DNA of 64,000 nucleotides from assembly GCF_028200735.1 (NCBI RefSeq), contig NZ_JAQKPV010000008.1, forward strand, positions 124,001-188,000. The letters run 5' to 3'. Source of the DNA: Streptomyces sp. ACA25 (GTDB lineage Bacteria; Actinomycetota; Actinomycetes; Streptomycetales; Streptomycetaceae). The notes under the pieces are model-generated. The model was not told the origin of the DNA and did not search any database. It saw only the letters and a list, made by a program, of their open reading frames with translations. How positions within the stretch are numbered: the first letter of the stretch is position 1; every line of letters begins with the position of its first letter. This document shows, one piece after another, positions 3,852 through 43,864 of this stretch. Position numbers and translations under genes: made by a program.

Positions 3852-3955
3852 TGCAGCAGGTCTACCACGGCCGCCGGCCACGGGCGTGTCGGCCCGAACC
3901 CGGGCCCGGTAGCAGTGGCCCCGGCCCGGCGGTGGGCGCGGGCCCGGCCGGGCGG

Positions 3956-14762: not shown

Positions 14763-17560
14763 GGGGTGTCCTTGCTCGGCGGCCGGGCCTTGGCCCCGGC
14801 GGTCAGGAACTGTTCGCGCAGCAGGGCGAGGTCGAGCTTGACCGCGTGACCGGCGTCGACGAAGCCGAGCACCGGGTACCCCTCGACGTTGAGGAGACGC
14901 TGCACGGTGGCGACGAATCCCTCGATGTTGCGCCGCACCCGGCCGGTCGCCGAGATGGCGGCGGCCAGGGCGGCGGGCGACATGGTGCCTCCGGCGGCGG
15001 CCAGGGCGTCGATGACGGCGGCGACGACCTTGCCTTCGGGGGCCTTGCGGACGTACTCCTTCTGCGCCTCGTACACCTCGCTCGCCACTACGCGCCCGCC
15101 GAGGGTCACGGGAGCAGGGGCTGCCTCGGGCACTCCTGCGGGCATCAGGACGTCGTCGGCGCCGAACAGCTCCTCGTCCTGCCGGCGCGAAAGTCCTGGC
15201 GGTCTCCCGGCGCGTGGCGCGGGGCGTTCCGGGCGGGGTTCAGGCATCTCGACGGGTGCCGAGGTGGTGGCCTTCCACCAGGAGGGCGCGGCCTGTTCAC
15301 GCGGCAGCGGATCCCAGCCGCGTGGGGCGAGCTCCTTCGACGGGAGGAGAACGAGGAGCGGGACGGTCACCTCGGCCAGGGAGGCCCCGCCGTGGTAGCC
15401 AGCCCGGCGGGCAGCGTACCGGATGTCCTCGTGCCAGGCTGCGGTGATCGTGCCGTCTCCTTCGAGCACGCGCGGCCCGCTCAACACGACCTCACCGTCG
15501 CCGGTGTCGGTGCCCGGCTGCCAGCGTGCCGATCCGCCACCGTCCGCGGCGGGCTTGATGCGGCCACGGCCACGGTCGAGGATGTGTCCGTGGTCGGCGA
15601 CGAGGACGACGGGGCGTGCGTAGCTGCGGGCGGCGGCCAGCAGTTCCCGCAGGTAGGTGATGTCGCCCAGGGACCACACAGTGCGCTGTCCTTGCTGGCC
15701 GGAGTCGAGCGCATCGTCGATGGTGTTGAGGACGACGCCGACGACAGCATCGGAGGCAAGCGCGGAGGCGAGTTCCGGGGCGAGGAAGTGACCCGCGTCT
15801 CCTCCTATCGACGCCTTGTGGAAGAGGACCGCGTCCTTGCGCCGCTTCGTCCAGAAGGACGTGAAACCGAAGACCTCGGTGGACTGGCCTCCCTGGGTGG
15901 CCGCGCCGCTGAGCAGGGAGGCGCGGCTCGTCCGGGTGAGGGAGGGCAGCATGGAGACAGCGGCGAGGCGGGCGCGCCGTTCGCCCTCGTCGGGCCGGGG
16001 GACGAACTCCTGCCAGCCTTCGCGTTCGGCTTGTTCGCCCAGTTGCGCGGCGACGGCACTGCTCATCCCGTCGAGCACGAGCACCAGCGGCGGTGCGGCG
16101 GCGGCCAGCGGGCGGACGACGGTGTCGAGGACGTTTTCGACGACCAGGCAGCCGCCCGGCTGCCCGGCGGTGGCGTTCGGGGCCCAGCCTGCGAGGTGCC
16201 GGGCGAACTGCTCATCGAGTCGTTCACGCCGGGCCCGGCCGTCCTCGAAGAGGTCGCGCAGGCTCCGTGCGACGGCCGGGTCGCCGCCGGGATCGCCGGC
16301 CCAGAGCACGGACAGCGCCCGGTCGGCCCAGCCCCATTCGGCGACATGCTCGCGTACGCCCATGGCGACGGACGTCACGGCCGGTGATTCCCGGCGCAGC
16401 CAGCGGGCGAGCCGCACGGCCATCTCCGCGACGCGCACCCGGTCGGGGAAGAGCCCTGCCAGGGCGTGCCCGGCCAGCTCGGCGAGCGCGGCCTCCCCGT
16501 GGGCGGGGGACCTGTGCGCGCCCTCGACGACGACGGCGAGCTGGGCGGCGAAGCTGGACATGAGGAAGCGGCTGCTGGTGAGGCCCGCGGCGAGTCCCGC
16601 GTCCCGCGCCAGCTCGTCGGCGCGCTGCAGCACGGCGAACACCTTCTGCCGTGCGTCGACCGACCCCGTGGCCTCTCCGATCCAGCGCAGCAGGGTGCCC
16701 TCCACCGCGTCGGTGAAGGCGCCGATCTCGCCCCGGCGCGGACCGGCCTTGCCGAAGAGTCCTCCGACGGCGAGGGCCACGTCGGGGTCCACTGCGGGGT
16801 CGCGCAGCGCAGCTCCGAGCAGGCCGAGGGCCATCGCGTCGGGGCCTTGCCCGGTCTCGGCGAGGGTGAGCAGGACGGGTACGGCGGGCCCGGCGACCTC
16901 GCCGAGCCATGTCTTCAGTTCCCTGCGTTCGGTTTCGGGGAGTTCGGCGAACCGGTGGGGCCCGGCGGGGGTGCGTGACCAGGCGAGCAGCACGTCCGCG
17001 TCGACGGCCGCGTCCGCCGTGGTGTGGGGCGAGATGTCCGGGTGGTGGAGCCCGAGCCGTTCGACGACCAGGGCACGCAGGGCGGCGTCCCGGGTGAGAA
17101 CGCCCGCGCTGCGCGGCCATCCCCCTCCGGCGGGTTCGGCGTCGACGAGGGCCTGGAGCAGCCAGTCCTCCCGGTACATGCGCAGGTCCAGGCCGGCGGC
17201 CCCGAAGCGCTGCGCCACGATCTCGGCCTTCTCCACGGTGAGGGTGCGGCGCTGCACCGCGTGCCCGCGCAGGTCCCAGCCCAGCTGGTCGTCGTCGACA
17301 CCGGTGGTGACCACGAGCAGGTCGCCGGGCGCGGCCTCATCGCGGTGGTTGTGCCAGGCAGCGAGGATGCCGAGGACGGAGGACTCGTCGCGGACGGTGA
17401 CGCGTCGGGTCCGCTCACCGACCTCGGTGGTGAAGGTGGTGGCCGAGCCGGCCGCGTACTGGCCGTGGATCAGCACCAGGCTGTGCTCGGCCAGTTTCCT
17501 GGCGTGCCGGTCGAGGAGTGCCTCTACGGAGCGCCGTCCCACCTGGGGCAGGAGCGCCAT
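14759..17560 (-). CDS. pglZ: PglZ, alkaline-phosphatase-fold BREX protein
   Basis: This 933-aa protein has the PglZ alkaline-phosphatase-superfamily core in the middle of the chain: LVLVLDGMSSAVAAQLG (metal/nucleophile region, about residue 490), the TSRASLLSG strand, and VVLVADHGHILDRGRG (His/Asp metal ligands, about residue 650). The N-terminal 450 residues are a helical BREX-2-specific region. PglZ is the one protein shared by all BREX types; in other BREX systems it is a metal-dependent nuclease or phosphodiesterase and is essential for phage exclusion. In S. coelicolor Pgl it moderates PglX toxicity. Its start abuts the pglY stop with a 1-base overlap. Full length, no truncation. Confidence 0.93.
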   Translation of the reverse strand: MALLPQVGRRSVEALLDRHARKLAEHSLVLIHGQYAAGSATTFTTEVGERTRRVTVRDESSVLGILAAWHNHRDEAAPGDLLVVTTGVDDDQLGWDLRGHAVQRRTLTVEKAEIVAQRFGAAGLDLRMYREDWLLQALVDAEPAGGGWPRSAGVLTRDAALRALVVERLGLHHPDISPHTTADAAVDADVLLAWSRTPAGPHRFAELPETERRELKTWLGEVAGPAVPVLLTLAETGQGPDAMALGLLGAALRDPAVDPDVALAVGGLFGKAGPRRGEIGAFTDAVEGTLLRWIGEATGSVDARQKVFAVLQRADELARDAGLAAGLTSSRFLMSSFAAQLAVVVEGAHRSPAHGEAALAELAGHALAGLFPDRVRVAEMAVRLARWLRRESPAVTSVAMGVREHVAEWGWADRALSVLWAGDPGGDPAVARSLRDLFEDGRARRERLDEQFARHLAGWAPNATAGQPGGCLVVENVLDTVVRPLAAAAPPLVLVLDGMSSAVAAQLGEQAEREGWQEFVPRPDEGERRARLAAVSMLPSLTRTSRASLLSGAATQGGQSTEVFGFTSFWTKRRKDAVLFHKASIGGDAGHFLAPELASALASDAVVGVVLNTIDDALDSGQQGQRTVWSLGDITYLRELLAAARSYARPVVLVADHGHILDRGRGRIKPAADGGGSARWQPGTDTGDGEVVLSGPRVLEGDGTITAAWHEDIRYAARRAGYHGGASLAEVTVPLLVLLPSKELAPRGWDPLPREQAAPSWWKATTSAPVEMPEPRPERPAPRAGRPPGLSRRQDEELFGADDVLMPAGVPEAAPAPVTLGGRVVASEVYEAQKEYVRKAPEGKVVAAVIDALAAAGGTMSPAALAAAISATGRVRRNIEGFVATVQRLLNVEGYPVLGFVDAGHAVKLDLALLREQFLTAGAKARPPSKDTP

Positions 17561-20500
17561 CAGCGTTCGGTCCCCTTCTCGTCGCCGCCGGCCGCGTCAG
17601 CCGCGTCGGCCCGGTCGTGGGCGTCCTCGATCACCTGCCAGGTGACTTGGACCCGGGTGCCGGGATGCGCGGTGAGGAAGCGGCGGATGTCGGCGCCGAG
17701 TCCGTCGACGGTCGCCGCGAGCGTGCTCTCCAGCCGGGTGGGTTCGACGATGTACCCGGCGGAGCCGCGGGCAGCCGTTGCCGCGTACCCCGTACGCGGG
17801 TCCTGCGCGGGAGGCCCCGAGTGCTGGGCGTCGCCGGCCGGTTCCGCGGGGACGGCGGGCACGGGAGGCGTGCCGTGCGCGGTGAGCCGTACGTCTTCCG
17901 CTGTCGGTGCGACGTCCGGCTGCGCGCGGGGGGCGGGCTCGACGGGCCGGGCCGCCTGGGCGAGCCGGGTGGCCTCCCGCATGAGGGCCACGGCCGACTC
18001 CTGCAGCGAGTCCAGCACCGGGACGAGGGACTCATCCTCCTCGTGGGCGTTCGCCGCCCGCCGGACGGATTCGAGCAGCCGCTCGGCCCGGTCGCCGACG
18101 CCGTCGTCGCGGGTCGCGAGTTCGCGCACCATGTCCAGGTCGGACCAGCGGGTGTCCCGCAGGGTTCGCAGCACCCGGAGCACTTCGGGGGCCTGCTTGA
18201 GGGCGGCGCCGACCTGCCGGTCCGTCACGTCATAGGCCGCGTTGGCCAGTTCGTCCGTGAGGAGGGTGGCGTCGGTGGTGCGCAGCAGGCGGGCGATCAG
18301 GTCGGCGGCGGCCTTGGTGGACGTCAGCCGTGGTGCGTCCGCGCCGCCGGGCCCTGCGAGGCCGAGTCGTGCGGCGTTTTCCTGGAGCAGTGTCCGGGCC
18401 TCCCCCACCGCGGCGCGGTGTTCTTCGGCGACGGCGCGCACCTGCGCGGCGAGCCGCGAGACATTCCTGGCGAAGAGGACGGGCGACACGCTCTGCCCGA
18501 AGACCGCTCCGGCACGGCGCAGTGCGGTGGCGAAGGTGTCCTCGTCGGGGAGGGCGACGGCGCGCAGACCGTAGCCGGGGACGATGCGGTCCAGGTCAGG
18601 TGCTTGCGGCACCACCTGGGTCTGGTAGATCCAGGTGCGGTCGTCGAGGAGCGCGTACGTCGCGATGATCAAATTGGTGACGTTGCGGTCCAGGCCCTCG
18701 TAGCCGAGGTCGGTGATCCACTCACGGATCGTCTCGACGGCCAGGTCCTCACCGGCGTCGGCGCTTTCGGCGGCCTTCTTGTTGATGCGCAGCCGCCAGT
18801 CGTTGCTGACGTTGAGCGGTCCGTCGTGCACCTCTCCGAGGCCGAGGGCGTGCACGATCTTCCTGACGACGGGCAGCTGATGGCTGTCCACCACGACCCG
18901 CCGGGAGCCGTCCTCCATCGCCCTGGCGATCCACTCCATGGTGGTCTTCAGTTCCCGCGCGGTGATGGCCTTGCGGGTCAGCCGCGGGTCGAAGTCGGGG
19001 TGCTTGGGGTAGCGGGCGGCGAACATGCCGTCGGCGAGCAGCAGCAGGTTCTGCTCGAACCCGACGGACGGCTCGGGGCGGGTGCGGGTGAAGCCCGGCA
19101 GCAGGGACACCAGGTGCTGCCCGTCGGGCACGGTCGCCCCGACGATGTCCGGCTCGGCGCGGTTGATCCCGTAGAGCTGGAGCAGGACCTCCGTGAGATG
19201 GCCGCTGATGTTGTCGCGGGATGCCTTGAGCTGGTTGCGGATCTGGGTCCGCTCCTCGGCGGGGCGGGTGGCCGTGTGCTCGTCGAGCCGGTCGCGCTCC
19301 AGCAGGTAGTTGATTTTCAGCAGGCGGCCGAGCTGCCGGGAGGTCTGCTCGGAGAAGAAGTCGGGCAGCCAGACGAGCGTGGGTTCGGTGCGGCCCGCTC
19401 CCCGCAGCCGGTTGACGCGCTGGAGGTCGTCGATGGGGCCGTGGTCACCGTCGTCGAAGGGGTAGTCGAAGACGATGCGGAGATTTCCGGGCTGCTGGGG
19501 AGCGAACTCGTCCTCGGGCAGATGCGTGTCGCGCACGTTGCCGAAGATGAACTCGACGGTGCGCCTGGTGCCGCGCCAGACGACATCCCGTTCACACACG
19601 AACGGCTGGGTGTCCTGGATGCCGAGTTCGCGCCAGAGCTGGTCCTTGATCCACTGGCGTCGGTAGCCGAGCTGGTCGGCGACGCCCTGCACCTCTTCGA
19701 GGAGCGGTTCGACGTCGATGTCGGAGAGGTGCAGGTGGAAGACGGGGTCGGCGCGGTCGCCGTCGCTGCGCAGCTCGCCGTCGAAGGAGACCTGGAGTTC
19801 CCGCAGCCGCTTGGCGGCGACGGAACCGGCGTCTCCCACGCGCGTGCGGATCGACCCGTGGTTCAGCGCGGCGAGCCGGGTGCCGGTGAGCCGGGTCAGT
19901 GCGGGCACGTTGGGCGCGAGCGAAGCCAGCAGCAGGGTCTTGACCAGCCGCTCGTCGGCCCGGAACCGCTTGTCGTCGGGGGTCTTGTACTTGCGCAGCA
20001 GTTCCTCGCGCACCCGCGCGTGGAACTGGTCGGCGGTCTCCGCGTCCTTGCGCAGCCGGGGCGTGAACGCGGCACCGGAGCGGTGCGCGATGACGTCCCA
20101 CAGGTCGCCGATCGGGATGAGTTCGCCGAGCTTCAGGTCCTCGCGGCGCCGGCGCAGCAGCTCCTGGACGAGTTTGAGACCGGTGCGCTCCCGCTGGAGG
20201 GCGCCGGAGAGGTCGACGAGGACGTTGAGGAGCGCCGGCGAGAGCGGGTACAGCTCTCGGAAGTCGTCCCAGGACGCTTCGGTGCGCCCCTGCCCGTCCA
20301 GGAGGATCTGGCGCACGTCGTCGTTTGACGACTCGACAAGTTTGAAGGCGTCGTCGCGCACGGACTCCATGCCGGGCTTCGGAGCGAGCACCCGGTGCTT
20401 GATGATCTCGACGAGATTGCTGTCCTCCAGGTCGACGACGTTGAAGCGCTCGGCCAGGTATTCGATCTGGCTTTCGAGGTTGGTCACATCGGCGCCGACC

Positions 20501-21540
20501 ACGTCCGAGCCGATCAGCTGCGACAGGTCGCGCTGACGGGAGATGAACGACACGATCGGCACCGGCCGGCCGCTGTCCCCCGACTCGATCAGCTTCACCA
20601 GCCGCTGGACCTGGTCGCGCACGAAGTCCTGGTTGCCCATTTTGGCCTGGAGCCACAGGACCAGTTCGTCAAGGAAGAGAACCACTCCGGTGTAGCCGAG
20701 GGACTGGGCATGCTGGGAGATGACCTTGAGGCCGTTCTCCAGCGGCAGGTACGCGCTGGCCTCCCCACGCATACCCTGCGCGTAGGCGGCCATGGGGCCG
20801 GTGAGCAGGGCGGAGACCAGCCGTTCGCGGTAGGGGTCGTCAGGCCCGCCCGCGAAGGCCCGGTCGAAGTCGGCGCCGGTCCACGTTCCGGCGGGCAGCT
20901 CCCCGGCGCCACCGTCCAGCATCGGCATGTCATCGGGATCCGCCTGCACCGGCGCAGTGGCGTCCGGCGTGAGCGCGGCGCCTCCCTTGCCCAGCCACCG
21001 CAGGAACTTGACGTCGTCGCCGAGGAACTCCCGCTGGGTGCGGGCGTCGGCGAGCAGGGCGTCGGCCCGGTACACGGCGGGCACCGGCTGGTCGGGGTGG
21101 ACTTCGCGCACCGTGTGCACGTAGCCGCCGAGCAGCGCCGAGTCGAGGTCGGCGGAGCCGACCAGGTGGTAGGGCACCATCAGGAACCGGCTGCGCCGCA
21201 GCCACTCGTCGTGCGGGGCCACGACCTCCACCAGCCGGGGCTTGGTGCGGACGGCCGGGTGGTTGTTAAGCACGGCGTGCAGCACGGTCAGGAAGTGGCT
21301 CTTACCGGAGCCGAAGGAACCGTGCAGGTACGACGCCTCCGAGTGACCCGATCTTGCACAGGCCGCCACGATGTCCAGCGCCTGCCGGAACGCCCCTTGG
21401 AGCTGCTCGGTGACGACGTACTCGGCCACCCGGGCGTCGGTCTCGCTGAAGCCCTGGGAGAGCTCGATCTTGAAGTCGCCGGCATGGACGTCTTCCTTTA
21501 TGTCGATGACGTCCTTCAGCAGGAGCTCGCTCGTGGGCAT
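17560..21540 (-). CDS. pglY: PglY, large BREX ATPase (BrxC family)
   Basis: This 1326-aa ATPase is the first gene of the minus-strand BREX operon. Walker A is HGSFGSGKSHF (residues about 73-83) and Walker B VVLFLDELVLWLQ (about residue 285), followed by PIVSFISRQRDL as a sensor strand. The remainder is a long helical region typical of BrxC/PglY, which are distantly AAA+/ORC-like and form oligomers with PglZ and the methyltransferase. In S. coelicolor PglY ATP hydrolysis is required for the Pgl phenotype. The length matches the family (1,200-1,350 aa). The promoter must lie in the 243-base divergent gap shared with the helicase-PLD gene at 21784. Confidence 0.93.
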   Translation of the reverse strand: MPTSELLLKDVIDIKEDVHAGDFKIELSQGFSETDARVAEYVVTEQLQGAFRQALDIVAACARSGHSEASYLHGSFGSGKSHFLTVLHAVLNNHPAVRTKPRLVEVVAPHDEWLRRSRFLMVPYHLVGSADLDSALLGGYVHTVREVHPDQPVPAVYRADALLADARTQREFLGDDVKFLRWLGKGGAALTPDATAPVQADPDDMPMLDGGAGELPAGTWTGADFDRAFAGGPDDPYRERLVSALLTGPMAAYAQGMRGEASAYLPLENGLKVISQHAQSLGYTGVVLFLDELVLWLQAKMGNQDFVRDQVQRLVKLIESGDSGRPVPIVSFISRQRDLSQLIGSDVVGADVTNLESQIEYLAERFNVVDLEDSNLVEIIKHRVLAPKPGMESVRDDAFKLVESSNDDVRQILLDGQGRTEASWDDFRELYPLSPALLNVLVDLSGALQRERTGLKLVQELLRRRREDLKLGELIPIGDLWDVIAHRSGAAFTPRLRKDAETADQFHARVREELLRKYKTPDDKRFRADERLVKTLLLASLAPNVPALTRLTGTRLAALNHGSIRTRVGDAGSVAAKRLRELQVSFDGELRSDGDRADPVFHLHLSDIDVEPLLEEVQGVADQLGYRRQWIKDQLWRELGIQDTQPFVCERDVVWRGTRRTVEFIFGNVRDTHLPEDEFAPQQPGNLRIVFDYPFDDGDHGPIDDLQRVNRLRGAGRTEPTLVWLPDFFSEQTSRQLGRLLKINYLLERDRLDEHTATRPAEERTQIRNQLKASRDNISGHLTEVLLQLYGINRAEPDIVGATVPDGQHLVSLLPGFTRTRPEPSVGFEQNLLLLADGMFAARYPKHPDFDPRLTRKAITARELKTTMEWIARAMEDGSRRVVVDSHQLPVVRKIVHALGLGEVHDGPLNVSNDWRLRINKKAAESADAGEDLAVETIREWITDLGYEGLDRNVTNLIIATYALLDDRTWIYQTQVVPQAPDLDRIVPGYGLRAVALPDEDTFATALRRAGAVFGQSVSPVLFARNVSRLAAQVRAVAEEHRAAVGEARTLLQENAARLGLAGPGGADAPRLTSTKAAADLIARLLRTTDATLLTDELANAAYDVTDRQVGAALKQAPEVLRVLRTLRDTRWSDLDMVRELATRDDGVGDRAERLLESVRRAANAHEEDESLVPVLDSLQESAVALMREATRLAQAARPVEPAPRAQPDVAPTAEDVRLTAHGTPPVPAVPAEPAGDAQHSGPPAQDPRTGYAATAARGSAGYIVEPTRLESTLAATVDGLGADIRRFLTAHPGTRVQVTWQVIEDAHDRADAADAAGGDEKGTER

Positions 21541-25068: not shown

Positions 25069-25341
25069 GCATGTGCGCAACATCTCACCTCCACCACAAC
25101 TGAGTTCGGCGAACCGCTGCTGGCGTTCCGGCCACCGCCTGTGACAGACTTGGACGTACCAGCAACGGGATCTCGCTCGTCGCCAGATCACCAGCTGTGT
25201 TTTCGCCAAGGAGTCCGCGGACGCACCCGGACCACCGGCTTCTCTCACCTCATCTGTCACGCCATAGGTACGAGTCCGCAGCGGCGGCGCTCCACGCGCA
25301 TGCCCGCGCTCGATGCCTGTGCACCACTCGGAGGCACATCC

Positions 25342-26336: not shown

Positions 26337-26729
26337 TGACAGAGAATCCGACAACGCCGTGGCTCCGCCGCCTGAGGCAGGGCGCACTCCGCATGGACCG
26401 TCTTGCCGGAGCAGAGGCGATCGCGTACGCCCCAGTCGGCGGCGAGCGGTGTCGATGGCAGCAGTGGCCACAGCCCCCGTCCTCGTCCAGCCCGGAGCCA
26501 GCCGCGCCGGCCGGGCGGGATGGGTGCCGGTCACCTCGGTCCGCACGACGCCCCGACTCTCGTCGCGGGACAGGGAGAAGGCGAAGCCCCGTCCCGCGAC
26601 GCGACCGTGAAGGACTGCGTTCGCCGTGAGTTCGGCAACGGCCAGAACGACGGTCTCGTGCGCCTCAGTGCCGCGCGGATGGCCCCACTCGGTGAGCTGG
26701 TGAGCGGCCAGCAACCGAGCCAGGCGGCT
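26337..26729 (-). pseudogene. decayed HATPase anti-sigma-type kinase (copy of the gene at 28591-29046)
   Basis: The minus strand matches the intact ATPase gene at 28591-29046 but is broken. RLARLLAAHQLTEWGHPRGTEAHETVV...AELTANAVLHGRVAGRGFAFSLSRDESRGVVRTEV is colinear with it. The frame then slips after ARLAPG, and the end (RDRLCSGKTVHAECALPQAAEPRR) is in another frame. The N-terminal 26 or so residues of the intact protein are missing: the homology starts right at the DUF397 remnant's ATG. It is one part of a larger decayed duplicate. Confidence 0.85.
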
Positions 26730-26878
26730 ATGAGAACCAGTGAGCTGGCCTGGTACAAGAGCCGCTACAGCGGTGGTGACGGTGACAACTGTGTCGAGGT
26801 TTCAGTGCAGTCCAGCGCCGTATTCTCTCGATGCCTGGTCGGCGTTCAACGACGCTGGTGGCCGACTCATACGTGTGA
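26730..26878 (+). pseudogene. DUF397 remnant (copy of the gene at 30126-30317)
   Basis: ATG 26730 begins a near copy of the intact DUF397 gene (SELAWYKSRYSGGDGDNCVEV), then about 45 internal bases are missing and the frame is lost before the TGA at 26876-26878. The downstream sequence, including the hairpin, also matches. The XRE gene that normally precedes DUF397 has been deleted, leaving DUF397 head to head with the ATPase remnant. Confidence 0.85.
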
Positions 26879-26885
26879 CCTCCCG

Positions 26886-26913
26886 GTGGGACAGCGCCTG
26901 ACGCTGCCCCACC
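26886..26913. terminator. decayed copy of the DUF397 terminator hairpin
   Basis: GGTGGGACAGCG-CCTGA-CGCTGCCCCACC has one mismatch against the perfect hairpin at 30324-30352. It shows that the duplicated segment ran past the DUF397 gene. Confidence 0.75.
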
Positions 26914-26936
26914 GAACGCATCACGTCCTACTCCTC

Positions 26937-27067
26937 CGGGCCACCGTCCACACGATCGTGCCCGTCCACGTCATGCACCAGAAAATCGCCGTGATCGACG
27001 AACGGACGGTGATGCTCGGCAGCCTCAACACGCAGGACATCCGGCTGGGTGGCGGCAGGCGCTGAGG
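26937..27067 (+). pseudogene. fragment of a second mkoC-like gene (PLD motif and C-terminus)
   Basis: This fragment matches the 3' end of the gene at 21784-25068: VHTIVPVHVMHQKIAVIDERTVMLGSLN (PLD HxKx4D box intact), then an internal deletion of about 75 residues, then DIRLGGGRR, which is the last segment of the parent, followed by TGA. It joins the DUF397/terminator remnant directly. The differences from the parent are scattered and mostly synonymous, so it is an old diverged copy rather than a recent repeat. Confidence 0.88.
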
Positions 27068-27176: not shown

Positions 27177-28292
27177 TCAAGCCTGACCACGCACGGGGTG
27201 GCCGGGGGTGTCGAGCCAGGCCGTCCAGCCGGTCGCCGTGATGGTGATGCCGAGCCGGTCGAGGTCAGGTTCCCCGGCGGTTCGCCACCAGGTGTGGGCG
27301 GCGGTGAGTTCGTCCCACAACCGCCGGTCGCCGACCTGCCGGACGGTGGCCGTAGTGCTGTCGGCCGGAAGGACCGCGGCGGTCCAGGCGCTGCCGTCCA
27401 GGGCGAACAGCCACAGGGTGCGGTCACTGCTGTCGTGCTGTTGCACGGCGTGGGTCATGCCGTACAGCAGCAGCCCGGCGGCGAAGGCGAAAGGGTGCCA
27501 CCGCTCGAAGAGCGAGGGGTCCACCTCGCAGGTGGAGTCGGCCACCGGTTCCAGGTCCGGGGCGAAGGCCGGGTGGGCGTAGCGCTGGGAGCGGGCCTTC
27601 ATGAACTCCAGCTGCTGGAGGAACCGGCCGGTCGCGGTGCCGTCGTCGTTGACGGTGAGCACGGTGAGGACGTCGCCGTTGCTGTAGCGCGTGCCCCAGG
27701 GGGTGACGATCAGCCCGCCGGGCCGGACCTGGTGCAGCCAGGCCGCGGGGATGTCGCGGAGGCCCATGGTGGAGATCAGCCGGTCGTACGGTGCGCCGTC
27801 CGGGTGCCCGGCGAGGCCGTCGCCGACGAGAAGCCGCGGGTGCAGACCGGCGGCGCCGAGCGCCGACTTCGCTGCGGCGGCCACGTCCAGGTCGATCTCG
27901 ATGCTGGTAACCGCCTGGTCGCCGAGCCGCCGTGCCATCAGGGCGGCGGTCCAGCCGGTTCCGGTGCCGATCTCCAGCACCCGATGCCCGGGTTTCAGCT
28001 CGGCGGCGGCGAGCATCGCGGCCACCACGGACGGCATGGACGCGGAGCTGGTCGGCTCAGTGCCCGGCGCGGTGCCGGAGTGCCGGCCGTCGTCCCACTG
28101 CGTGACCACCGGCATGTTGGCGTCGGCAGCGGACCGCCAACCGTCGGGGTCGGTACGGCGGTCCACCGGCCGCGCGGTGCGGGTGGCCATGTCGTGCGGC
28201 CACATCAGGTCCGGCAGGAACCGGGCACGCGGGAGCGCGGCGAACTCACACTGCCAGAACGCCGCGGCCCACCGCGTGGTGCGCACGGTCAC
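27177..28292 (-). CDS. protein-L-isoaspartate-type methyltransferase, probably peptide-modifying
   Basis: This 371-aa SAM-dependent methyltransferase has a PCMT-like core. Motif I is VLEIGTGTG (residues about 105-113), followed by SIEIDLDVAAAAKSALGAAG, LLVGDGLAGHPDGAPYDRLIST and the post-motif RPGGLIVTPWG. The family hallmark TSSASMPSVVAAML precedes motif I. A C-terminal extension of about 150 residues is not present in housekeeping PCMT but occurs in RiPP-associated members (ATP-grasp and FxLD-type methyltransferases, and pathways that form aspartimides). No ATP-grasp or lanthionine gene is visible. Its GTG start overlaps the stop of a 47-aa peptide gene by 4 bases, so the peptide is the likely substrate. 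It would methylate Asp/isoAsp side chains. Confidence 0.8.
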   Translation of the reverse strand: MTVRTTRWAAAFWQCEFAALPRARFLPDLMWPHDMATRTARPVDRRTDPDGWRSAADANMPVVTQWDDGRHSGTAPGTEPTSSASMPSVVAAMLAAAELKPGHRVLEIGTGTGWTAALMARRLGDQAVTSIEIDLDVAAAAKSALGAAGLHPRLLVGDGLAGHPDGAPYDRLISTMGLRDIPAAWLHQVRPGGLIVTPWGTRYSNGDVLTVLTVNDDGTATGRFLQQLEFMKARSQRYAHPAFAPDLEPVADSTCEVDPSLFERWHPFAFAAGLLLYGMTHAVQQHDSSDRTLWLFALDGSAWTAAVLPADSTTATVRQVGDRRLWDELTAAHTWWRTAGEPDLDRLGITITATGWTAWLDTPGHPVRGQA

Positions 28293-28432
28293 TTACTGTC
28301 GTCCTTGTTGCCGTCGTCCTTGCGGTGCTTGCCATCCCCGGGCGGCGCGTCACCGTCCGGCGCAGGCGTGGGGGGACTCCACGGGGTGCCCGGTAACTTG
28401 TCCTCACCGCGCGTGCTGTGCTGACTGGCCAT
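28289..28432 (-). CDS. 47-aa putative precursor peptide coupled to the methyltransferase
   Basis: ATG 28432 opens a 47-codon frame that stops at 28289 with a 4-base overlap (GTGA) with the methyltransferase. It is hydrophilic, with no membrane segment. The centre is proline-rich (PGTPWSPPTPAPDGDAPPGDG) and the tail strongly charged: GKHRKDDGNKDDSK. It has three Asp-Gly pairs (DGD, GDG, DDGN), which are the sites most prone to aspartimide formation and therefore good PCMT substrates. There is no other role for so short a coupled frame that I can see. It does not match a named peptide family I recognise; pamtide- or imiditide-like RiPP precursor is inference. Confidence 0.5.
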   Translation of the reverse strand: MASQHSTRGEDKLPGTPWSPPTPAPDGDAPPGDGKHRKDDGNKDDSK

Positions 28433-28590: not shown

Positions 28591-29046
28591 TCATCGACGC
28601 TGTGGCTTCGCAGCCTGAGGCAGTGCGCACTCGGCCCAGACCGTCTTGCCGGGGCCGAGGCGGTCGCGTACACCCCAGTGGGTGGCGAGCGCGTCGACGA
28701 GAAGCAGGCCACGGCCCCCGGCCTCGTCCGGCCCGGGAGCCAGCCGCGCCGGCCGGACGGGATGAGTGTCGGTCACCTCGATCCGAACGACGCCCCGACT
28801 CTCGTCGCGGGACAGGGAGAAGGCGAAGTCTCGTCCCACGACACGGCCGTGGAGGACGGCATTCGCCGTGAGTTCGGCGACCACCAGTACGACGGTGTCG
28901 TGCGCTTCGCTGCCGCGCGGATGGCCCCACTGCGCGAGCTGGTGAGCGGCGAGCAACCGGGCTAGGCGCGCACCGCGCCGGGTGGCGGCAAAGCACTGCG
29001 CAAACGTGCCGGTGGGGGTCGTGCTTGGGGCGCGTGGGGCTGACAT
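28591..29046 (-). CDS. HATPase-domain anti-sigma-type kinase (RsbW-like)
   Basis: This 151-aa single-domain ATP-binding protein is of the HATPase_c_2 family. N box: VVLVVAELTANAVLHGR. G1/G2 boxes: LLLVDALATHWGVRD, with a degenerate G1 region and GGRG preceding. It matches the many small actinobacterial anti-sigma/anti-anti-sigma kinases. It would act in the cytosol, probably through an unseen partner. It is divergent from the XRE/DUF397 pair across 200 bases that contain a palindrome (29095-29114); such HATPase/XRE/DUF397 trios are common in Streptomyces. ATG 29046 has AGGGTGG upstream; GTG 29055 is possible. Confidence 0.85.
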   Translation of the reverse strand: MSAPRAPSTTPTGTFAQCFAATRRGARLARLLAAHQLAQWGHPRGSEAHDTVVLVVAELTANAVLHGRVVGRDFAFSLSRDESRGVVRIEVTDTHPVRPARLAPGPDEAGGRGLLLVDALATHWGVRDRLGPGKTVWAECALPQAAKPQRR

Positions 29047-29094
29047 GGCGGCCACCCTGTCAGGAGTGCAGGCCCTGTCGGCAGGTCCGGCGCT

Positions 29095-29247: not shown

Positions 29248-30129
29248 ATGGCGACGGACAACGGCGGCGGGTCGGGTGCGAACGTCGGTCAAGGCGGGGG
29301 CGGGGGAGGCAACTGCGAGTCAGAACTGTCGGACAGCCTGAAGACCTTCGGCGCGGTCCTCAAGGCCTTGCGGGAGGAAGCACGCCTGACACAGGAGCAA
29401 CTGGCTTCGCTGGTGGGGTACTCGGCCGCCTACGTCGCCAAGATCGAACAGGGCAGGCGCTTCCCACCACGGGAGCTTCTGGACCGGTCGGAGCAGGCGC
29501 TGGGAGCGGTCGCGGCACGGGTTCTGGGCGCAGCGGCGAAAAGTCTGACCCGGAAAGCGGGGTTGGCATCGTGGTTCCTGCAGTGGGCGGGGATCGAAGA
29601 GGCTGCGATCTCGCTGTATGCATACGAGGGCCGAGTCGTACCAGGTCTGTTGCAGCCCGAGCCCTATATTCGAGCTCTCTTCGACCGGTACCTTCCCCCT
29701 CTCACCGAGGAGCAGTCCGAACAGCAAGTGGCGGCACGGCTGGCCAGGCAGCAACTTCTCATCGATCGGCCCAATACGACATTCAGCTTCGTCATCGAAC
29801 AGGCACTGCTGGAGCGTCGCATGGGAGGGGCTGCCGTAACGAAGGCACTCCTCGACCGCCTCATCGCAGTGGGCCAGCATCGCAACGTGGAGCTTCAGGT
29901 CATGCCCCTGCTCCAAGAGGAGCACTCCGGCTTCGAGGGGGAGATGTACCTTGCCGAGACGGCCGATCACCGCTGGGTCGGTTACGTGGAGGGCCACGGC
30001 ACCAGCATGCTCATCAGCGACCCAAAATCGGTGAGTCACGTGCTCCAGCGCTATGGCAAGATGCGCTCGCAGGCTCTGAGCCATCAAGCCACGGTGAGCC
30101 TGCTGGAAGAGATGCGAGGAGCGCTATGA
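29248..30129 (+). CDS. XRE-family regulator with DUF5753
   Basis: This 293-aa transcription factor has an N-terminal helix-turn-helix: FGAVLKALREEARLTQEQLASLVGYSAAYVAKIEQGRRFPP (residues about 32-72), preceded by a glycine-rich tail. The C-terminal DUF5753 domain carries its typical EGRVVPGLLQPEPYIRALF and LVERQL-type helix (VAARLARQQLL) and DPKSVSHVLQRYGKMRSQALSH. Such proteins pair with a DUF397 protein, encoded here immediately downstream with a 4-base overlap. They act as developmental or cluster-specific regulators. Likely self-regulated through the 29095-29114 palindrome. Confidence 0.92.
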   Translation: MATDNGGGSGANVGQGGGGGGNCESELSDSLKTFGAVLKALREEARLTQEQLASLVGYSAAYVAKIEQGRRFPPRELLDRSEQALGAVAARVLGAAAKSLTRKAGLASWFLQWAGIEEAAISLYAYEGRVVPGLLQPEPYIRALFDRYLPPLTEEQSEQQVAARLARQQLLIDRPNTTFSFVIEQALLERRMGGAAVTKALLDRLIAVGQHRNVELQVMPLLQEEHSGFEGEMYLAETADHRWVGYVEGHGTSMLISDPKSVSHVLQRYGKMRSQALSHQATVSLLEEMRGAL

Positions 30130-30317
30130 GCACCAGCGAGCTGGCCTGGTTCAAGAGCAGCTATAGCGGCGGTGGCGGTGACAACTGTATCGAGGTCGCT
30201 GTACGCCCGGAGACCGTGCTTGTCCGCGACTCGAAGGACACCGAGCGGCCGTCCTTGGCCGTCTCCCGCGATGCCTGGTCAGCGTTCACGACGCTGGCGA
30301 CCGACTCGCGCGCGTGA
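30126..30317 (+). CDS. DUF397 small protein
   Basis: This 63-aa DUF397 protein (SELAWFKSSYSGGGGDNCIEVAV, then VRDSKDTERPSLAVSRDAWSAFTT) starts inside the stop of the XRE regulator (ATGA overlap) and so is translationally coupled to it. DUF397 products are thought to modulate their cognate regulator. A near-identical but deleted copy exists at 26730-26878. It is followed 7 bases later by a perfect hairpin and then by the convergent pglX. Confidence 0.9.
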   Translation: MSTSELAWFKSSYSGGGGDNCIEVAVRPETVLVRDSKDTERPSLAVSRDAWSAFTTLATDSRA

Positions 30318-30365: not shown

Positions 30366-33300
30366 CTACTCCACGTCCACGGCAGGCCGCTTCGTCGCGG
30401 CCTTGCGGCCACGTGTCTTCCGCACTGGACGCCAGGCCTTCAGCTCCTCGACGCCGACCTGTCGCTTGCGGAGCTGGTTCTCGTACTCGGCCTCCAGCTC
30501 GTCGGCCGGTACGTCACCCCACTCGTCGTCGTACTCGCCGTGCCACTGCTTGACCCACGGCATGACCTCATGAAGCCCGGCGAGCAGCGGAACGATCCGC
30601 TCGGAATTCCAGCCGTCCCGCGTCGTACGGGCGGCCAGCAGCTCGAAGAGCGCCTGCGCCTGGTCCTTGTGGTCCCAGCCGGCCCACCCCAGCATCAGCG
30701 TCGAGTCGCTGTCGGGCCCCGCCTCGGGGTAGGAGATGAACCGCTCCTTAGGCACGTCGAGCTTGCCTCGGTTCGACCAGTAGGACGCACGGGCAAAGTC
30801 GGCGGACGTGTACTTCGGCGGTACCGGGATGTCGAGCCGCTCCCCGGTACGGTCCTCCTCGCGCTGCTGCCGCCAGACCTCCTCCCACTGGGCTCGCTTG
30901 CGTAGGCCGGGGTCCTTGTAGCGCATCGCGGCGAGGTAGGGCACGTGCTCGTCGGCGATCACTTCGCTGAGAGTCTGCGCGAGGGGCAGGTCGGGCTTAC
31001 CGAGGTGGTCGGAGGCGTAGAGCGCGGCGACGGAGACAAAATCCACGTCTGTGCTGAGCTGGTCGGCAAGGTAGTTGACGGTCATCGGACGAGGCCGCTT
31101 GAGCCCTTCGCGAACCTCGTACCAAAGCTCCTGCTTCTCGCACCTGTCCAGCAGCCAGTTCCGCAGCGCGGTACGTTCCTTCTTTTCCCACGGTTCGGCT
31201 GACCAGCGCCGCTTGCACTCGGGGCGCTCGATGAGGGCGATGTCCTTGTGGGAGTTGATAATTTCGATACGCGCCTGCACAATATCGCGGTACCAGTCGG
31301 GCCAGTGAGCAGGGATTTCGGTGACGGGAGTGGACCCGTGCCGGGTGAACCAAACAGTCTCCGCCTCTCCTGAGGCCATCTTCCGCGCGAGCACAATCTC
31401 AAAAGCCCGCTCACCTAGCTGCACCTCGGGCAGATAAGCACTGTGGTCGGACACGACGGTACGAGCCACCTCTGACGGAGTGAGCAATCCGTACTGACCG
31501 TAGACCTCCCAGTCCAGCTCTTCCTGCTTGGCAATCATCCGGTTCCGCGTGGCGGCATAGCTGGTACGTGCCGCGTCAAGAGTGCCCCGCATGGGGACAC
31601 TCGCCTCACTCACAGCGGATGGCTCATAACCCGCCAATTCGCATGCAAGAAGATCCAGATCCCGACCGAGCTTCAACGGAAGTTGTTCGGGCAAGGGATA
31701 TTCTCGGAGCTTAGTTCCGGTGAATTCGTAACGCTCCTCCCAGTCCTCGTCCTGTAGACCGCGCCCGAGACCACTCCCCCCCTTGCTCTGGCTCACTTGC
31801 TTCAGCCAGAAACAGGCAGTCGAAGAGTTCAGCACGCCCAACAACTCCAGGTGCTGATCCTCGCTAGCCTCCTCGGGCAGCTTGATCACGGGCGCAGACT
31901 GCTTGAAAACCTTCCCTCCTCGGTCCAGCACGAAATGGTTATGCGTCGCCACGAAGGCAAAAGAAATCGACAAAGGAGTCCGGAGTTTACTCTTCGTCAA
32001 GCGGCCATACTCAGACCACTTGAGACCGCCTTCTACTTTTGTTTTTCTACCGAAGAGGAAGTTGTTCGAGATCGTAGTCCGGCATGGCCACATGAAGCGA
32101 AGCAACTGAGGTTGCTCCTCAACAGCTATTGGAGTCATATCAACGGTGTACGGAAAAATCGCGTATTCGAAACCACCACCCGCCCAATCTCGGAGCATAT
32201 CACCGGTCACCATGGGGCGAGTCCAAGCAGCACTAAGACCACACCGTCTGGCACTGCGCTCAGGCAGAAGGTACAGGTCATCTTCCAAAGTAAAACTCGT
32301 AATACCCAGTGATTCAGCACGATCCCCGAGAGTCGCAAGTGCCAATGCAACGCGGCTTTGCAGATCTCCTGCGCCACCACCACTTACAGACCAGGGGTGT
32401 GATCTGAACACTTGAGCTGGCGCGTCCTCTACAGAAACCCACTGGGACTCCGACCCCGGCACCCTCACCTGCTTGACGATCGACTGCCATACGGACCCCT
32501 GCGCCGCGTCTTCCGGCTGCGAAGGCTCACCCCGCACGCCCAGCACGGCTCGGAGCTTCCGGTCCGGATTGGGTACACGATTCCGACCCACGAGGACAAC
32601 CGTCGGAGTCCCGTGGCCGGGGATAAAGGCACCAGACGTATCGATGACGTGGGACAGTTCAACCCGGTTCCAGAAAAAATCCTGGATAAGGTTCTTACCG
32701 AACTCCCTCTTCATAAACGAGTTCGCGGTGATCTGCCCCACGAATCCACCTCCCCCCGCACGCCCACCCGCGCCCTTCACCGCAAGCTCGAACATCCGCT
32801 GAGCAAACGGCACCGAGAGCGCGTACTTACCCGCGCAAGCGTCGTAGGACAGACGGTAATTGTCGTTCTCCTGCTTATCTTTGACCGTAATATAAGGCGG
32901 ATTCCCCACCACCACGTGATAAGAACCTCGTCCCAGCAAATCAACCCGCTTCGCATACTCCCACACATCCTCCGTGGAATAGGCGAACGCCCCTTCTTTA
33001 CGCCCGATCTGCACCTCGGCGAACAGCGTGTCCAGGTCCGTCTGGATACCCGCCGCGTCCCGCCCGTGCAGCAGCGAGTCCCCGACCGCCACGTTGATCG
33101 GGAACGGTGGCGCGTCCTTCAGTCTCCGCGCCCCCGCCACCCGCATGGCGGCCACGAGCAACCGGAAGCGTGCGATGCTCACCGCATACGGGTTCTTGTC
33201 GCAGCCGTGGACCGACTCCAGGGAGCGTCGTACCAACGTCCAGATGTCCGTCCCCGGCTCTGCGGCGCGCCACTTGTCCATCAGGCGGTGGAAGATGCCC

Positions 33301-34088
33301 AGCAGAAAGTGGCCCGAGCCGCAGGCCGGGTCAATGGTGCGCAGGCCGCGCCGTTCTTCCCCATCAGGGCCCTCCCACACCGGGTCCAGACCGAACGCGT
33401 CTGTGGAGACGGCCGGTTCGAGCGTGAGGTCGAGGATGAACTCCTCCACAAACACCGGGGTCTGGAGCAGCGCGTAGGTCTTGCGGGCGTGCTCGCTGAG
33501 GTCCTGGTACAGGTCGCCGAGGAAGCGGGTATCCCACTCAGGATCGGTGAAGTCGTAGCGGATCTCCCCCTCGGCGCCCCACCGCCGCCAGAACGACAGC
33601 AGTTCGGTCGCCGCCTCATAGCCGGGCGTGATGTCCCACAGTGGGTTGTGGGCCTCGTCGAAGAGGCCGGCCGCAGTGTCGTTGGCGGTGGCGACGGCGT
33701 GGAAAGCGGCGAACAGCCAGTCCCGGTTGTTCTTGGTCGGGTGGTCTCGGAAGAACGCCTCATGCCGGGCCTCGGCCTCCGCGAGCCGCTCCCCCGGGCC
33801 GGCAATGAACGGTTCGTCGATAAGGCTGTTGTCCTCGCAGAAGCGGACGAAGACGCAGGCCAGCACCCAGGCCGCCGCGGACTGGGTGACCCGCTCGTCA
33901 CGCCAGGCACCGTATGTCGCCGCGGTGCGCCGGGCAGCCCGGGACCGCTGGTACTCCGCCTTCAGGCGTTCGCGGAACTCGTCCACGGACTCGGCCCGCG
34001 CCCGCAGATCATCCTCCAGCGCCGTGACCTGGCGCTTGAGGTCCTTGAGCAGGGCCGCCGGGTCCACACCAGCCTTGACGTCCGTCAC
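30366..34088 (-). CDS. pglX: PglX, BREX-2 adenine-specific DNA methyltransferase
   Basis: This protein of about 1240 aa is the modification subunit of type 2 BREX, predicted to methylate the N6 position of adenine at the host's BREX sites and also needed for exclusion. SAM motif I is [14 protein letters not shown] (about residue 250) and catalytic motif IV is NPPY ([12 protein letters not shown], about residue 390). A long N-terminal helical region and the C-terminal specificity/helical segments match the family's length. GTG 34088 has a good GGAAGC site; ATG 34169 would add 27 residues of doubtful sequence. Its middle, about 31550-32950 (residues roughly 380-840, covering the specificity region), is much poorer in GC than the ends. 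A 7-G run lies at 31776-31782. Confidence 0.93.
31776..31782 (-). repeat. 7-base homopolymer G tract inside pglX
   Basis: The coding strand reads AAG followed by seven G and AGT, encoding K-G-G-S near residue 769. A second run of six G lies at 32752-32757. Gain or loss of one G would shift the frame of pglX. S. coelicolor pglX is known to vary in phase through a G tract, so this is a candidate, though the tract is short. Confidence 0.5.
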
Positions 34089-34244
34089 GTACCGCTTCCT
34101 TCTCGATAGCACTGCCCGTCTTTCACAGCTCTCTCGTCCACCGTGGTCAACCGCGCTCAGACCCCTCATCCTGCCAGGCCACGCCCACAGGCCACACCCA
34201 ATGGGCGCAGGGCGCCTCCGGTGCGGAAACGCTCCCTTCCCTGC

Positions 34245-39193: not shown

Positions 39194-42100
39194 CTACACC
39201 GGCTGTTTCAGGAAGCCACCGTCCAGGTAGGCCAGTTCGCCGTCGTTACGCAGTGCCTCCACCGGCTGTCCGTCCAGATGCGGGTCCTTGGTGCGGGACT
39301 CCATCGGGCACAGCAGCCACAGTCCGTGCGGCCCGCCGGAGGGCCGGCGGGCGGCGGCCTGGAGGGTGACCAGGAACGCACGGCCGCCCTCGTCCCAGTA
39401 CCGGGCGATCAGGCCCGCGTCGTGGAGGAAGAGGATTGTGCGCGGCTCGGTGGAGCGGGTGTCGAGGTCCTCGGCGACGCGCTGCCACACGACGCGGACG
39501 AAGGTGGCGAGGCCCGGCTTCACGCGGCCGGGCGCGGAGGCCGCGTCGGCACGCAGGACCGTCCGCCAGTCCTGGCCCCTCTCCTCGACGAGCTGCCGAA
39601 ACTCCCGCAGGAACAGCGCCCCGAGGTCGACGGGTACCACCGGGAAGCGGGCGGCGATCATCTCGGCCGTGCCCTGCAGGCGGGCGGCCTTGACCGTGAG
39701 CGCGAGGAAACCGCCGCGGTCGGCGCACTCGGTAAGTTGTTCGCGCAGCGCGCCGCAGGGGTCGTCGGACTCCCGGCGCGCACGGGGTCCTGCCGGGGGG
39801 AGCATGCTGGTGACCGAGCCGGTGGAGGACCAGGGGCCGGTCGATCTCGGCGCCGGAGGAAGGAACCGTCCGGCCTCGTCGTCGTGCCGCAGATCGAAGC
39901 GGGCCGCCTGGAGGGCATCCTCCAGCACCACGGGGGTCGGCTCCCGGCCGTCCTCCAGGACGTCGAGGTCGGGGAACCGGGCCCGCACCCGGGCGACGAG
40001 TTCTGTGGCGGTGATCCCGCGGTCCGCCCGGACACCGGCCCCGGCCTGCGAAATGCGCAGCGCGCGTTCCAGGCCCAGGTCGCGCCGGTACAGCTCCAGG
40101 CGGGGGGAGTGGCGCACCACGGACGAGGCCACGGCGGCGGCCAGGGTCACCAGACGAGTGTCGGCGAGCGGCGTGAACCCCTCCGGGGCGGGCACCGCGC
40201 GCAGCTCCCGCACTACCTCGGCACGCCCCGGCAAAGGTTCCCGGCCTGCCAGCTTCTCCGCGGTCGCGCCCAGCTCCGCCGCGTAGTCCGCCAGCTCCTG
40301 GGGGTTCGGGTCGTCGGTGCCGGGCAGGGACTCGGACGCCAGCAGCACCGTGTCGCCGCGCCGATGTACGGCGAGGCGGGGTTCGTGGCCTGCCTCCTCG
40401 CGGGTCTCCGCCTCGACAGCGGCACGGACCACCGCCAGTGACCGGGCCAGCACCCGCTCGGAGGTGTCGTCCCGCGCCCCGTGCAGGGCGCGCAGCTCCT
40501 GGGCGGCCTGCGAAGCGGTCATCACCCGGCCGAAGCCGGCGACGACCTCGACCAGTTCGTCGGACACCGCCCGCAGCCACTCGCCCTCGGCCCACAGCTT
40601 GATCTCCGCACGGTGGTGGCGGGAAACCTGCGGCTGCTTGATGCCCAGGTGTTCGGCGATGCGCGCCTGCACGGGCCAGGGGCCCAGCGGGGAGACGCCG
40701 CCGTCCTCGGGCGGCAGGCCGAGAGTGAGGCGCACGACGCCGGCGCGGTGCGAGCCCTTGCGGCCGGGTGGCGGGGTCAGCCGGCCGGCCATGTCGTCGA
40801 CCGACAGGATGCCCGTCACCCCGGCCCGCGGGTCCTCGTCCACCGCCGGAGAGGCGGCCTTGCGGGCGGCCGGTGCGGTGGCCTTCCCCCGCAGCGCGGC
40901 CGCCCACTGGTGGCGGCGGCGGTTCAGCTCCTTGCGCACCAGCGGACCGGCACCCCGGGCCTTGGAGATCACCGACGGCTGGATGTCCAGCAGCTGCCCC
41001 ACCGTGGTCGCGCCGAGCCCCGCAGCAACCGTGACGGCGCGCGGCGACAGGCCGGCCAGTTCCAGCTCGGTGGACGCGTCGGCGGCAAGCGCCGCACGGT
41101 CCCGTGCCTGCTCGGTGTCCTCCGCCTCGGCGCCGACCGTGGAAGGGGTGGTCGGCGGCCGGTCGGTGTCGGCGTCCCGGAAGACCTTCTGCCAGGCGTC
41201 CTTCATCTGCCGCAGCGTGTCGAAGCGGTGCTCGATGTCCCGGTGCAGGGCACGCCGGAAGAACGCGGTCAGGCCGGGCTGCAACGGCCGGTAGAAGACC
41301 TCACCGGCGATGTGCAGCTCGGCGGACTCGTTGGTGAGGGGATCGGTGCGGCCGTCGCCCCACAGCGGACGCTCACCGCTCGCCATCTCGTGCAGGGTGA
41401 CGGCCGCGGCGTAACGCTCGGCGTGGTCGTCGAAGTGCGGGCGGCGCACCGAGCCGAGGAACGGATCGAGATAGCCGCGGGTTCCGGCCTTCACATCACG
41501 GTCGGAGGCATCCGTCAGGGAGAAGTCGAACAGCTTCAGCTGCCAGGTGAAGTCCTTGCGGCGCTGAATGCCGAGGTTGTCGGGCTTGATATCCCGGTGG
41601 CGGACACCGTTCGCGGCAAGCTGGTCGAGCGCCAGGAACAAGTCCTCGCCGAAACGCTCCAGGTCGTCGTAGCTGAGCTGTCCCGCGCCGCGCAGCCGGG
41701 CGCCGAGGGACTGCTCCCCGGCGTACTCCAGCTGCAGGACCGTCCGCGGCCCGACCTCGCGCAGCCCGTCGCCGCGCAACTGGACCACGGCGCCGCCGCC
41801 GACCAGCTTCAGCGCGCGCTCCTCCGCTCGCAAGCGGTCGGCCTTCTGCTCGTCGAGCGCCACCTTGAACACGCGGTCCTCGACGCGGAGCGTGCCGTCG
41901 TCGTCCTCCACGGCGCGCTCCACCAGCAGGGCGCGGGCCGTGGCCCCCGTGCCGAGGACTCTGCGCACCGACCATTCGTCGTCCAGTGCCTGGCCGGGCA
42001 GCGCCTCCAGCGGGTCGAGAACCGGCGCTGCCGTGGAGTCGGGGACAGCGCCGGCCCGTTCCGCCTCGTCGAGGAGGTCCAGGAACTCCTCCGCGGAACT

Positions 42101-43627: not shown

Positions 43628-43864
43628 CCCCCGGGGCCCGACAAGTCCCTGGTGGAGCCTACAGCCAAGGACCGGGCCGGCCAGGTGACTGCGAGGCCCG
43701 GGCCTTGCACCGGGAGCCGTGCCCGACCGCCGGACGCGGGGGCCGAAGGCGCGTGCGTCCAGGGGCTCTGTGGTGCAATGACATCTGCCCGGCACCGGGC
43801 TCGGCCCCGGCCTCCTCGCACAAGGGGGAAGGAGCCGGAGCACCAGCGAAGAAGAGGAGTCACC

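Follow-up and report, generated by a model that had tools for sequence, protein, structure and literature searches.

Results

A 47-codon gene overlaps the start of a methyltransferase gene

In the genome of Streptomyces sp. ACA25, a 47-codon peptide gene and the methyltransferase gene adjoining it very probably constitute a type I pamtide (imiditide) locus, in which Asp26 of the peptide would be methylated and converted to an aspartimide. The pair is located in a BREX type 2 (Pgl) phage-defence locus, between pglX and pglY, in the 64,000-nucleotide stretch of DNA that we analyzed as a whole (hereafter, the window). The pair would be a further member of the already published pamtide family, to which it would add a naturally occurring precursor whose probable recognition end is extended by an acidic tail and which has a single predicted target, Asp26.

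The peptide gene (28432..28289, minus strand) starts with ATG, stops with TGA and encodes the putative 47-aa precursor MASQHSTRGEDKLPGTPWSPPTPAPDGDAPPGDGKHRKDDGNKDDSK. The ORF of the putative peptide L-aspartyl O-methyltransferase (PAMT; 28292..27177, minus strand; 371 aa) opens with GTG at 28292, and the four bases GTGA (28289..28292, minus strand) are common to the peptide stop and the methyltransferase start, an overlap that would couple the translation of the two genes. A preliminary description of this DNA had reported a 47-aa frame overlapping the methyltransferase start by four bases, which the ORFs confirm, and homologous peptides occur at the starts of related methyltransferase genes (see below). 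The GC contents at the three codon positions of the peptide gene were 0.66, 0.57 and 0.83. By eye, the Shine-Dalgarno-like stretch ahead of the ATG was weak, and a search for sigma-70-type promoters and direct repeats around the pair returned nothing persuasive. The peptide matched no Pfam or NCBIfam model up to E = 1 and nothing in a plasmid collection. It had been described as uncatalogued, which holds with respect to the Pfam and NCBIfam models, but not with respect to the peptide class, which has been published (PMC10787088; PMC13001092).

The precursor peptide is conserved at related methyltransferase loci

The preliminary description would have been contradicted by a peptide frame that was not conserved upstream of orthologous methyltransferases, and the frame proved to be conserved. 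We compared 124 loci, comprising the best 80 of 113 confirmed related loci together with loci from further genomes of the same genus and the paralogues of the ACA25 genome; a methyltransferase was matched in 123 of them, and these were assigned to peptide classes. A PGxxW-like/PD[GST] peptide was present at the methyltransferase start in 57 of the 123 loci (window included), and 48 of these 57 pairs had exactly the same four-base overlap. Within the best 80 of 113, the corresponding numbers were 30 and 27. Of the remaining loci, 14 had a DDS[DN]SG-type peptide, 18 were assigned to a mixed class and 34 to no class. The mixed class includes ORFs that are clearly not precursors (for example, those of L060, L077 and L083) and was excluded from the conservation counts. 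Among the 34 unclassed loci, 25 had no chosen peptide at all, and some had other short Pro/Gly/Asp peptides at the methyltransferase start.

In 56 of the 124 loci, a strict motif, PG-x-P-[WYF]-x(3,16)-PDG, lay close to the methyltransferase start; elsewhere in the 1,446,820 translated residues of these loci, it was encountered only four times. Two of these four matches are one and the same paralogue of the ACA25 genome, seen in the overlapping loci L002 and L004; of the other two, one looks like a second copy of the peptide in L079 and one looks like a chance match. The strict motif did not occur in 799,920 residues of control sequence (20 stretches of 20 kb from ten genomes of the genus). A loose PD[GST] motif was dropped as too permissive, as it gave 64 matches near methyltransferase starts and 69 elsewhere.

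These data bear on a different reading of the pair, in which the methyltransferase has a different substrate, for example a second peptide or a protein encoded nearby, and the 47-codon frame serves only as a leader that sets the rate at which the enzyme is translated. We consider this quite improbable. The four-base overlap would suit translational coupling, and the 34 loci in none of the three peptide classes would fit a leader as well, albeit some of them carry other Pro/Gly/Asp peptides; however, a leader would have no need of the conservation observed in the peptide sequence, which keeps PDG invariant and has a dN/dS of approximately 0.25 (159 pairs with at least 70% identity, the pairs not being independent), and published relatives of the enzyme modify the adjoining peptide (PMC10787088).

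Two other kinds of precursor were observed in front of the same enzyme family. A class with the pattern QDDS[DN]SG..HGGGGSDEGGN, without PDG, was present at 14 loci, among them L003, L045, L047, L050, L058, L109, L110, L111, L112, L114 and L115. In Actinomadura sp. GC306 (L066), the ORF that runs up to the methyltransferase start encodes a Cys-rich peptide of the form CxxCxGxG...CxxCxGxG, which resembles the precursors of type II pamtides.

Asp26 of the PDG motif is the likely target

Forty-nine distinct peptides from 54 loci, picked by PG-x-P-[WYF], were aligned. The window peptide shares the conserved motif PGTPW at residues 14–18 (28379..28393, minus strand) and, downstream of it, the PDG motif that contains Asp26 (codon at 28355..28357, minus strand). 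The PDG residue is Asp in 49 of the 49 distinct peptides, a count that is perhaps slightly flattering because the choice of candidate ORFs favoured those bearing PDG where several existed, whereas the next Asp, that of G-D-G, is kept in 30 of 49. On the basis of this alignment, Asp26 is the likely site of methylation and aspartimide formation.

The preliminary description had instead proposed the Asp-Gly and Asp-Asp sites of the charged tail as the substrate. We abandoned this proposal, because the tail is not conserved: the sequence DDGNKDDSK (residues 39–47; 28292..28318, minus strand) is a lineage-specific extension, and although 37 peptides of the class have an HRK-like end, further residues follow it in four of them, among which the L090 peptide alone carries a comparable tail (DDGEDEEK). 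The basic HRK itself (residues 36–38; 28319..28327, minus strand) lies in columns occupied by H in 35, R in 31 and K in 40 of the 49 peptides. By analogy with the results for SpaA and NmaA in PMC13001092, it is probably part of the end recognized by the enzyme. SpaA was no longer modified when its last five residues were replaced with alanine (PMC13001092), and the acidic tail that follows HRK in the window peptide could for this reason weaken recognition.

The methyltransferase has the architecture of RiPP-associated PAMTs

Against Pfam, the methyltransferase matched PF01135 (PCMT) with 92.6 bits; against NCBIfam, it matched TIGR04188 with 298.6 bits, under the cut-off of 380. A structure model built from 43 sequences had a mean pLDDT of 92, with values mostly above 90. 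In this model, a PCMT core is followed by a C-terminal domain (residues 249–360; 27213..27548, minus strand), which runs strand-helix-four strands-helix over residues 249–338 (E249–256, a short H259–262, H267–275, E279–285, E291–297, E303–308, E314–320 and H325–338) and then adds two short strands. The modelled order matches the beta-alpha-beta4-alpha arrangement reported for PAMTs in PMC10787088, in which a clade of 9408 PAMT-type enzymes with a C-terminal extension of more than 100 aa was described. When the model was searched with Foldseek, the first PDB match was 1DL5 (E 3.1e-18), a loose fit with a TM of 0.53–0.61 and an rmsd of 8.2; this is a T. maritima enzyme, the one member of the clade with a solved structure according to PMC10787088. 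When PDB entries were ranked by sequence, 1jg1 came first, with a match confined to the core.

A tree of 113 enzymes was computed by a quick method, with SH-aLRT support and no bootstrap, after removal of duplicate rows, of L002 and L004, in which the gene is broken, and of L067 and L078, which are shorter than 250 aa. The window enzyme paired with that of L090 (SH-aLRT 89) in a group of five rows (99), the other three being L036 and two Kitasatospora enzymes. It fell within a 65-row clade (SH-aLRT 95) containing all 53 PGxxW/PDG rows and the Streptomyces sparsogenes L049 enzyme. Five enzymes that we take to be ATP-grasp-linked from an upstream sequence motif, and for L005 also from a partial TIGR04187 match under the cut-off, formed a separate group (SH-aLRT 96). 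Among the matches listed, the closest full-length relative of the window enzyme was that of L009, with 58% identity.

A motif search and the alignment located WXXXGXP at W336–P342 (27267..27287, minus strand); W336 and P342 were invariant across the 43 sequences. The motif, which has been described for RiPP-associated methyltransferases (PMC13001092), was present in 45 of 53 PDG-class enzymes and also in four of the five ATP-grasp-linked ones, and it is not decisive for pamtides because other RiPP methyltransferases share it. The C-terminal domain and this motif nevertheless separate the enzyme from an ordinary protein-repair methyltransferase (PIMT) preceded by a chance ORF, a reading that we find hardly tenable. 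It would account for the PF01135 score and for the best PDB matches, which are PIMT structures, but the scores against the PIMT equivalog models were far under their cut-offs (NF001453, 95.6 against 188 bits; TIGR00080, 69.2 against 159 bits), and the precursor is conserved.

The pair resembles characterized type I pamtide loci

Type I pamtides, of which 1414 have been counted (PMC13001092), have precursors of approximately 45 aa with 17.3% Gly, 16.8% Pro and 10.2% Asp and a conserved Asp near Pro or Gly (PMC10787088). The 47-aa window peptide has 8 Pro (17%), 8 Asp (17%), 6 Gly (13%) and no Cys. Like SpaA-SpaM of S. sparsogenes and NmaA-NmaM of Nonomuraea maritima, the locus consists of two genes, a Pro/Gly/Asp-rich precursor of approximately this length without Cys and a PAMT with the C-terminal domain and WXXXGXP; the precursor likewise has its conserved Asp near Pro and Gly and charged residues toward the C-terminus, and the enzyme belongs to the clade of the S. 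sparsogenes L049 enzyme. The +14/–18 Da chemistry has been demonstrated for SpaA/SpaM (PMC10787088). The window pair differs from type I pamtides in the extra tail DDGNKDDSK after HRK and in its position inside a BREX-2 locus.

The S. sparsogenes genome that contains L049 gave seven matches to the L049 enzyme at E 1e-20. The upstream regions of five were read, and three of these (L187, L188 and L190) contained PDG peptides. Strains ATCC 25498 and DSM 40356 of this species are presumably the same strain, and SpaA is probably identical to one of these PDG peptides.

Other RiPP classes that use related methyltransferases were compared and rejected. The type II pamtides/cysimiditides (FcaA-FcaM) have the enzyme family and the two-gene logic in common with the window pair, but the window peptide lacks Cys and hence the two CXXCXGXG zinc motifs. 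The methyltransferases of group 13 graspetides (SsfM and AmdM; TIGR04188) are homologous to the window enzyme over nearly the full length; the TIGR04188 score is, however, under 380 bits, there is no ATP-grasp maturase on the contig and the enzyme lies outside the ATP-grasp-linked group of the tree. A class I lanthipeptide or FxLD assignment was rejected on the TIGR04364 score (117.9 bits against a cut-off of 320), the absence of LanC from the contig and the absence of Cys from the peptide.

The preliminary description had noted that no ATP-grasp or lanthionine enzyme was present and had proposed a two-gene pathway of the pamtide/imiditide sort. Both points were upheld. TIGR04187 and PF05147 (LanC) had no match on the 293.5-kb contig of the window (C78), and the only TIGR04187 match of the genome, on contig C1, scored 41.2 bits, under the cut-off. 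The two-gene pathway agrees with the conserved precursor, the C-terminal domain, WXXXGXP and the grouping of the enzyme with those of pamtide-type loci. A Pfam scan of 12 neighbouring genes in the window recognized no RiPP enzyme; two of the 12 (25141–26313 and 37730–39145) had no Pfam match of any kind, and four more genes were covered by PADLOC only.

Proposed course of the modification

In the scheme we propose, the peptide would be translated first and the methyltransferase would follow by coupling through the GTGA overlap. The enzyme would then bind the linear peptide, with no ring-forming enzyme acting beforehand, probably by charge contacts with the basic HRK; modification of a linear peptide has been demonstrated for relatives, and we extend it to this pair by analogy. 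The Asp26 side chain, within the Pro-rich PDG motif, would receive a methyl group from S-adenosylmethionine, and the resulting ester would close to an aspartimide (–18 Da), which would open mostly to isoaspartate. The Pfam scan of the 12 neighbouring genes recognized neither an exporter nor a protease; the product is therefore just as likely to act inside the cell or as a regulator as it is to be secreted.

The pair was probably inserted into the BREX-2 locus

The order of genes in the locus is BrxHI, BrxD, PglZ, PglY (17560..21540, minus strand), a helicase-PLD gene, a gene without known identity, the pair, an ATPase gene, an XRE gene, a DUF397 gene and PglX (30366..34169, minus strand). Beyond PglX lie two PDC-M28 genes, another gene and PglW (39194..45097, minus strand). 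The two PDC-M28 genes (PDC-M28B/C; window 34797–37624) are candidate defence genes, and homologues of them were observed in the pglX-pglY slot of L230.

Next to the pair, at 26354–27030, rearranged pieces of the ATPase, DUF397 and PLD-helicase regions adjoin one another and have the appearance of a recombination scar. They consist of a partial second copy of the ATPase gene (26354..26726), a remnant copy of the DUF397 region (26727..26925) and a remnant copy of the helicase PLD-domain region (26933..27030; 92% identical to 24711–24808). Approximately 350 bp of the ATPase gene are repeated on both sides of the insert, as a direct duplication with 85–88% identity, and the insert itself includes the pieces from the DUF397 and PLD regions. 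In G016 and G350, whose pglX loci are closest to that of the window among the 40 others read (PglX identity approximately 92% over the last 390 residues), the genes stand in the same order without the pair. The pair therefore probably entered the BREX-2 locus by recombination at the ATPase gene, as a late insertion or capture. It lies on the strand of the ATPase gene, 158 bases downstream of it, and may be read from its promoter.

Is the pair a functional partner of BREX-2?

The position of the pair raises the question of whether it is a functional part of BREX-2, with the modified peptide acting as a defence signal or effector, or as a regulator together with the ATPase, XRE and DUF397 proteins, a role that would be compatible with its identity as a pamtide. 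We see only a slight chance of this. Apart from the location between pglX and pglY, two observations favour it: a second, divergent pair occupies the same slot in the second BREX-2 locus of the ACA25 genome, and a Wenjunlia vitaminophila pair lies between pglX and pglW. On the other side, the pair is absent from the two loci that most resemble that of the window among the 40 other BREX-2 loci, and no such methyltransferase was present in 40 stretches covering 20 kb downstream of pglX (these slots being 40 of 112, hand-picked for long contigs). Of 127 methyltransferase matches in the 100 other PglX-positive genomes, 1 was no more than 20 kb from PglX, against 0.73 expected for genomes of 8.5 Mb, and this one is on the pglW side.

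These numbers derive from a search of 392 genomes, of which 101 have PglX, some of the PglX matches being so near contig ends that the slot is not visible. Among methyltransferase matches, 130 of 131 were used, the second piece of the broken paralogue of the ACA25 genome being left out. In the 101 genomes, the methyltransferase scan took no more than 28 of up to 82 first-look candidates per genome in one search and no more than 64 of up to 81 in the other, and weak methyltransferases may for this reason be missed. Among the candidates scored, no pair was seen within 20 kb on the pglY side of the 112 pglX genes of the 100 other genomes.

On the 0 of 40 slots and the 1 of 127 matches, we reject the pair as a BREX-2 component as a general rule, although two of the three pairs of the ACA25 genome are in BREX-2 loci. 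Considering that 1 of 127 compares with 0.73 expected and that the 40 slots are empty of such enzymes, we treat the location of the pair as that of cargo, with a small chance of function. A related idea is that the variable pglX-pglY slot accepts pamtide pairs as its cargo and that a peptide containing aspartimide or isoAsp contributes to phage defence or to signalling via the ATPase, XRE and DUF397 genes often present there. To us this is a long shot; if it were true, the presence of two different pamtide classes in the slots of two divergent BREX-2 loci of one genome would suggest such a contribution.

Other pairs in the ACA25 genome and in relatives

The ACA25 genome contains three pamtide-type pairs, two of them inside BREX-2 loci and one with a broken enzyme gene. 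The second BREX-2 locus (C78:81.7–112.8 kb; L194, L195 and L197) is divergent, with a PglX 48% identical to that of the window, and its pair (L003), with a precursor of the DDSDSG class, is located between pglX and pglY. The third pair (C78:51725–52943; L002, L004 and L146) has its methyltransferase in two different open frames, as a result of either a broken gene or a sequencing error. This paralogue is 64% identical to the window enzyme over residues 9–126, and its peptide (C78:52848–52943) is 67% identical to that of the window over residues 13–42 (E 0.0022). In Wenjunlia vitaminophila (L016), the pamtide-type pair between pglX and pglW spans 2696–4179, and its peptide ends with PDSGPPPGNGGHRR. 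The function of the change from Asp to isoAsp is described as largely unknown in PMC10787088, and the role of the aspartimide in imiditides as unclear in PMC13001092. One genome with three pairs, two of them in phage-defence loci, offers a concrete setting for the question of a role in defence or development.

A triad of regulator-like genes accompanies pglX

The three genes between the pair and pglX encode an AbaA-like HATPase_c_2 protein (28591..29055, minus strand), a WhiJ-like XRE regulator with HTH_31 and DUF5753 (29248..30129, plus strand) and a BldB-like DUF397 protein (30126..30317, plus strand), all recognized by Pfam. They look like the families of the WhiJ/BldB/AbaA paralogue loci of S. 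venezuelae (PMC10294661), and the names are given by analogy; a difference is that triads of the window type also occur in BREX-2 loci without a pair. We had considered the triad, including its ATPase, as part of the pamtide pair and withdrew this for the same reason.

Many Streptomyces BREX-2 loci (L199–L238) carry such a triad downstream of pglX. In the 20 higher-ranked pglX stretches of 20 kb, the ATPase was found in 16, the HTH protein in 16 and the DUF397 protein in 18; the counts for the 20 lower-ranked stretches were 8, 9 and 12, with the HTH and DUF397 genes of L238 being 19 kb away, and those for 20 control stretches at the same threshold were 2, 0 and 0. PglY is visible in 37 of the stretches, and in 23 of these the entire triad precedes it. 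Elsewhere, such triads are developmental and antibiotic regulators (PMC10294661, PMC10364602), and given these roles the triad downstream of pglX may matter more than the pair. Among the literature matches listed, none linked BREX or pglX with DUF397 or WhiJ, apart from a proteomics paper that mentions both separately.

Models grown from the three proteins of the window were also searched near pamtide-type methyltransferases. The ATPase was not enriched there, being found in 9 of 80 loci (approximately 7 kb each) versus 3 of 20 controls (20 kb each). The HTH protein was found in 40 of the 80 loci of approximately 7 kb versus 1 of the 20 controls of 20 kb, and the DUF397 protein in 20 of 80 versus 0 of 20 over the same respective lengths. 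Graspetide groups 11 and 13 have been reported to co-occur with DUF397/DUF5753 genes (PMC13097080).
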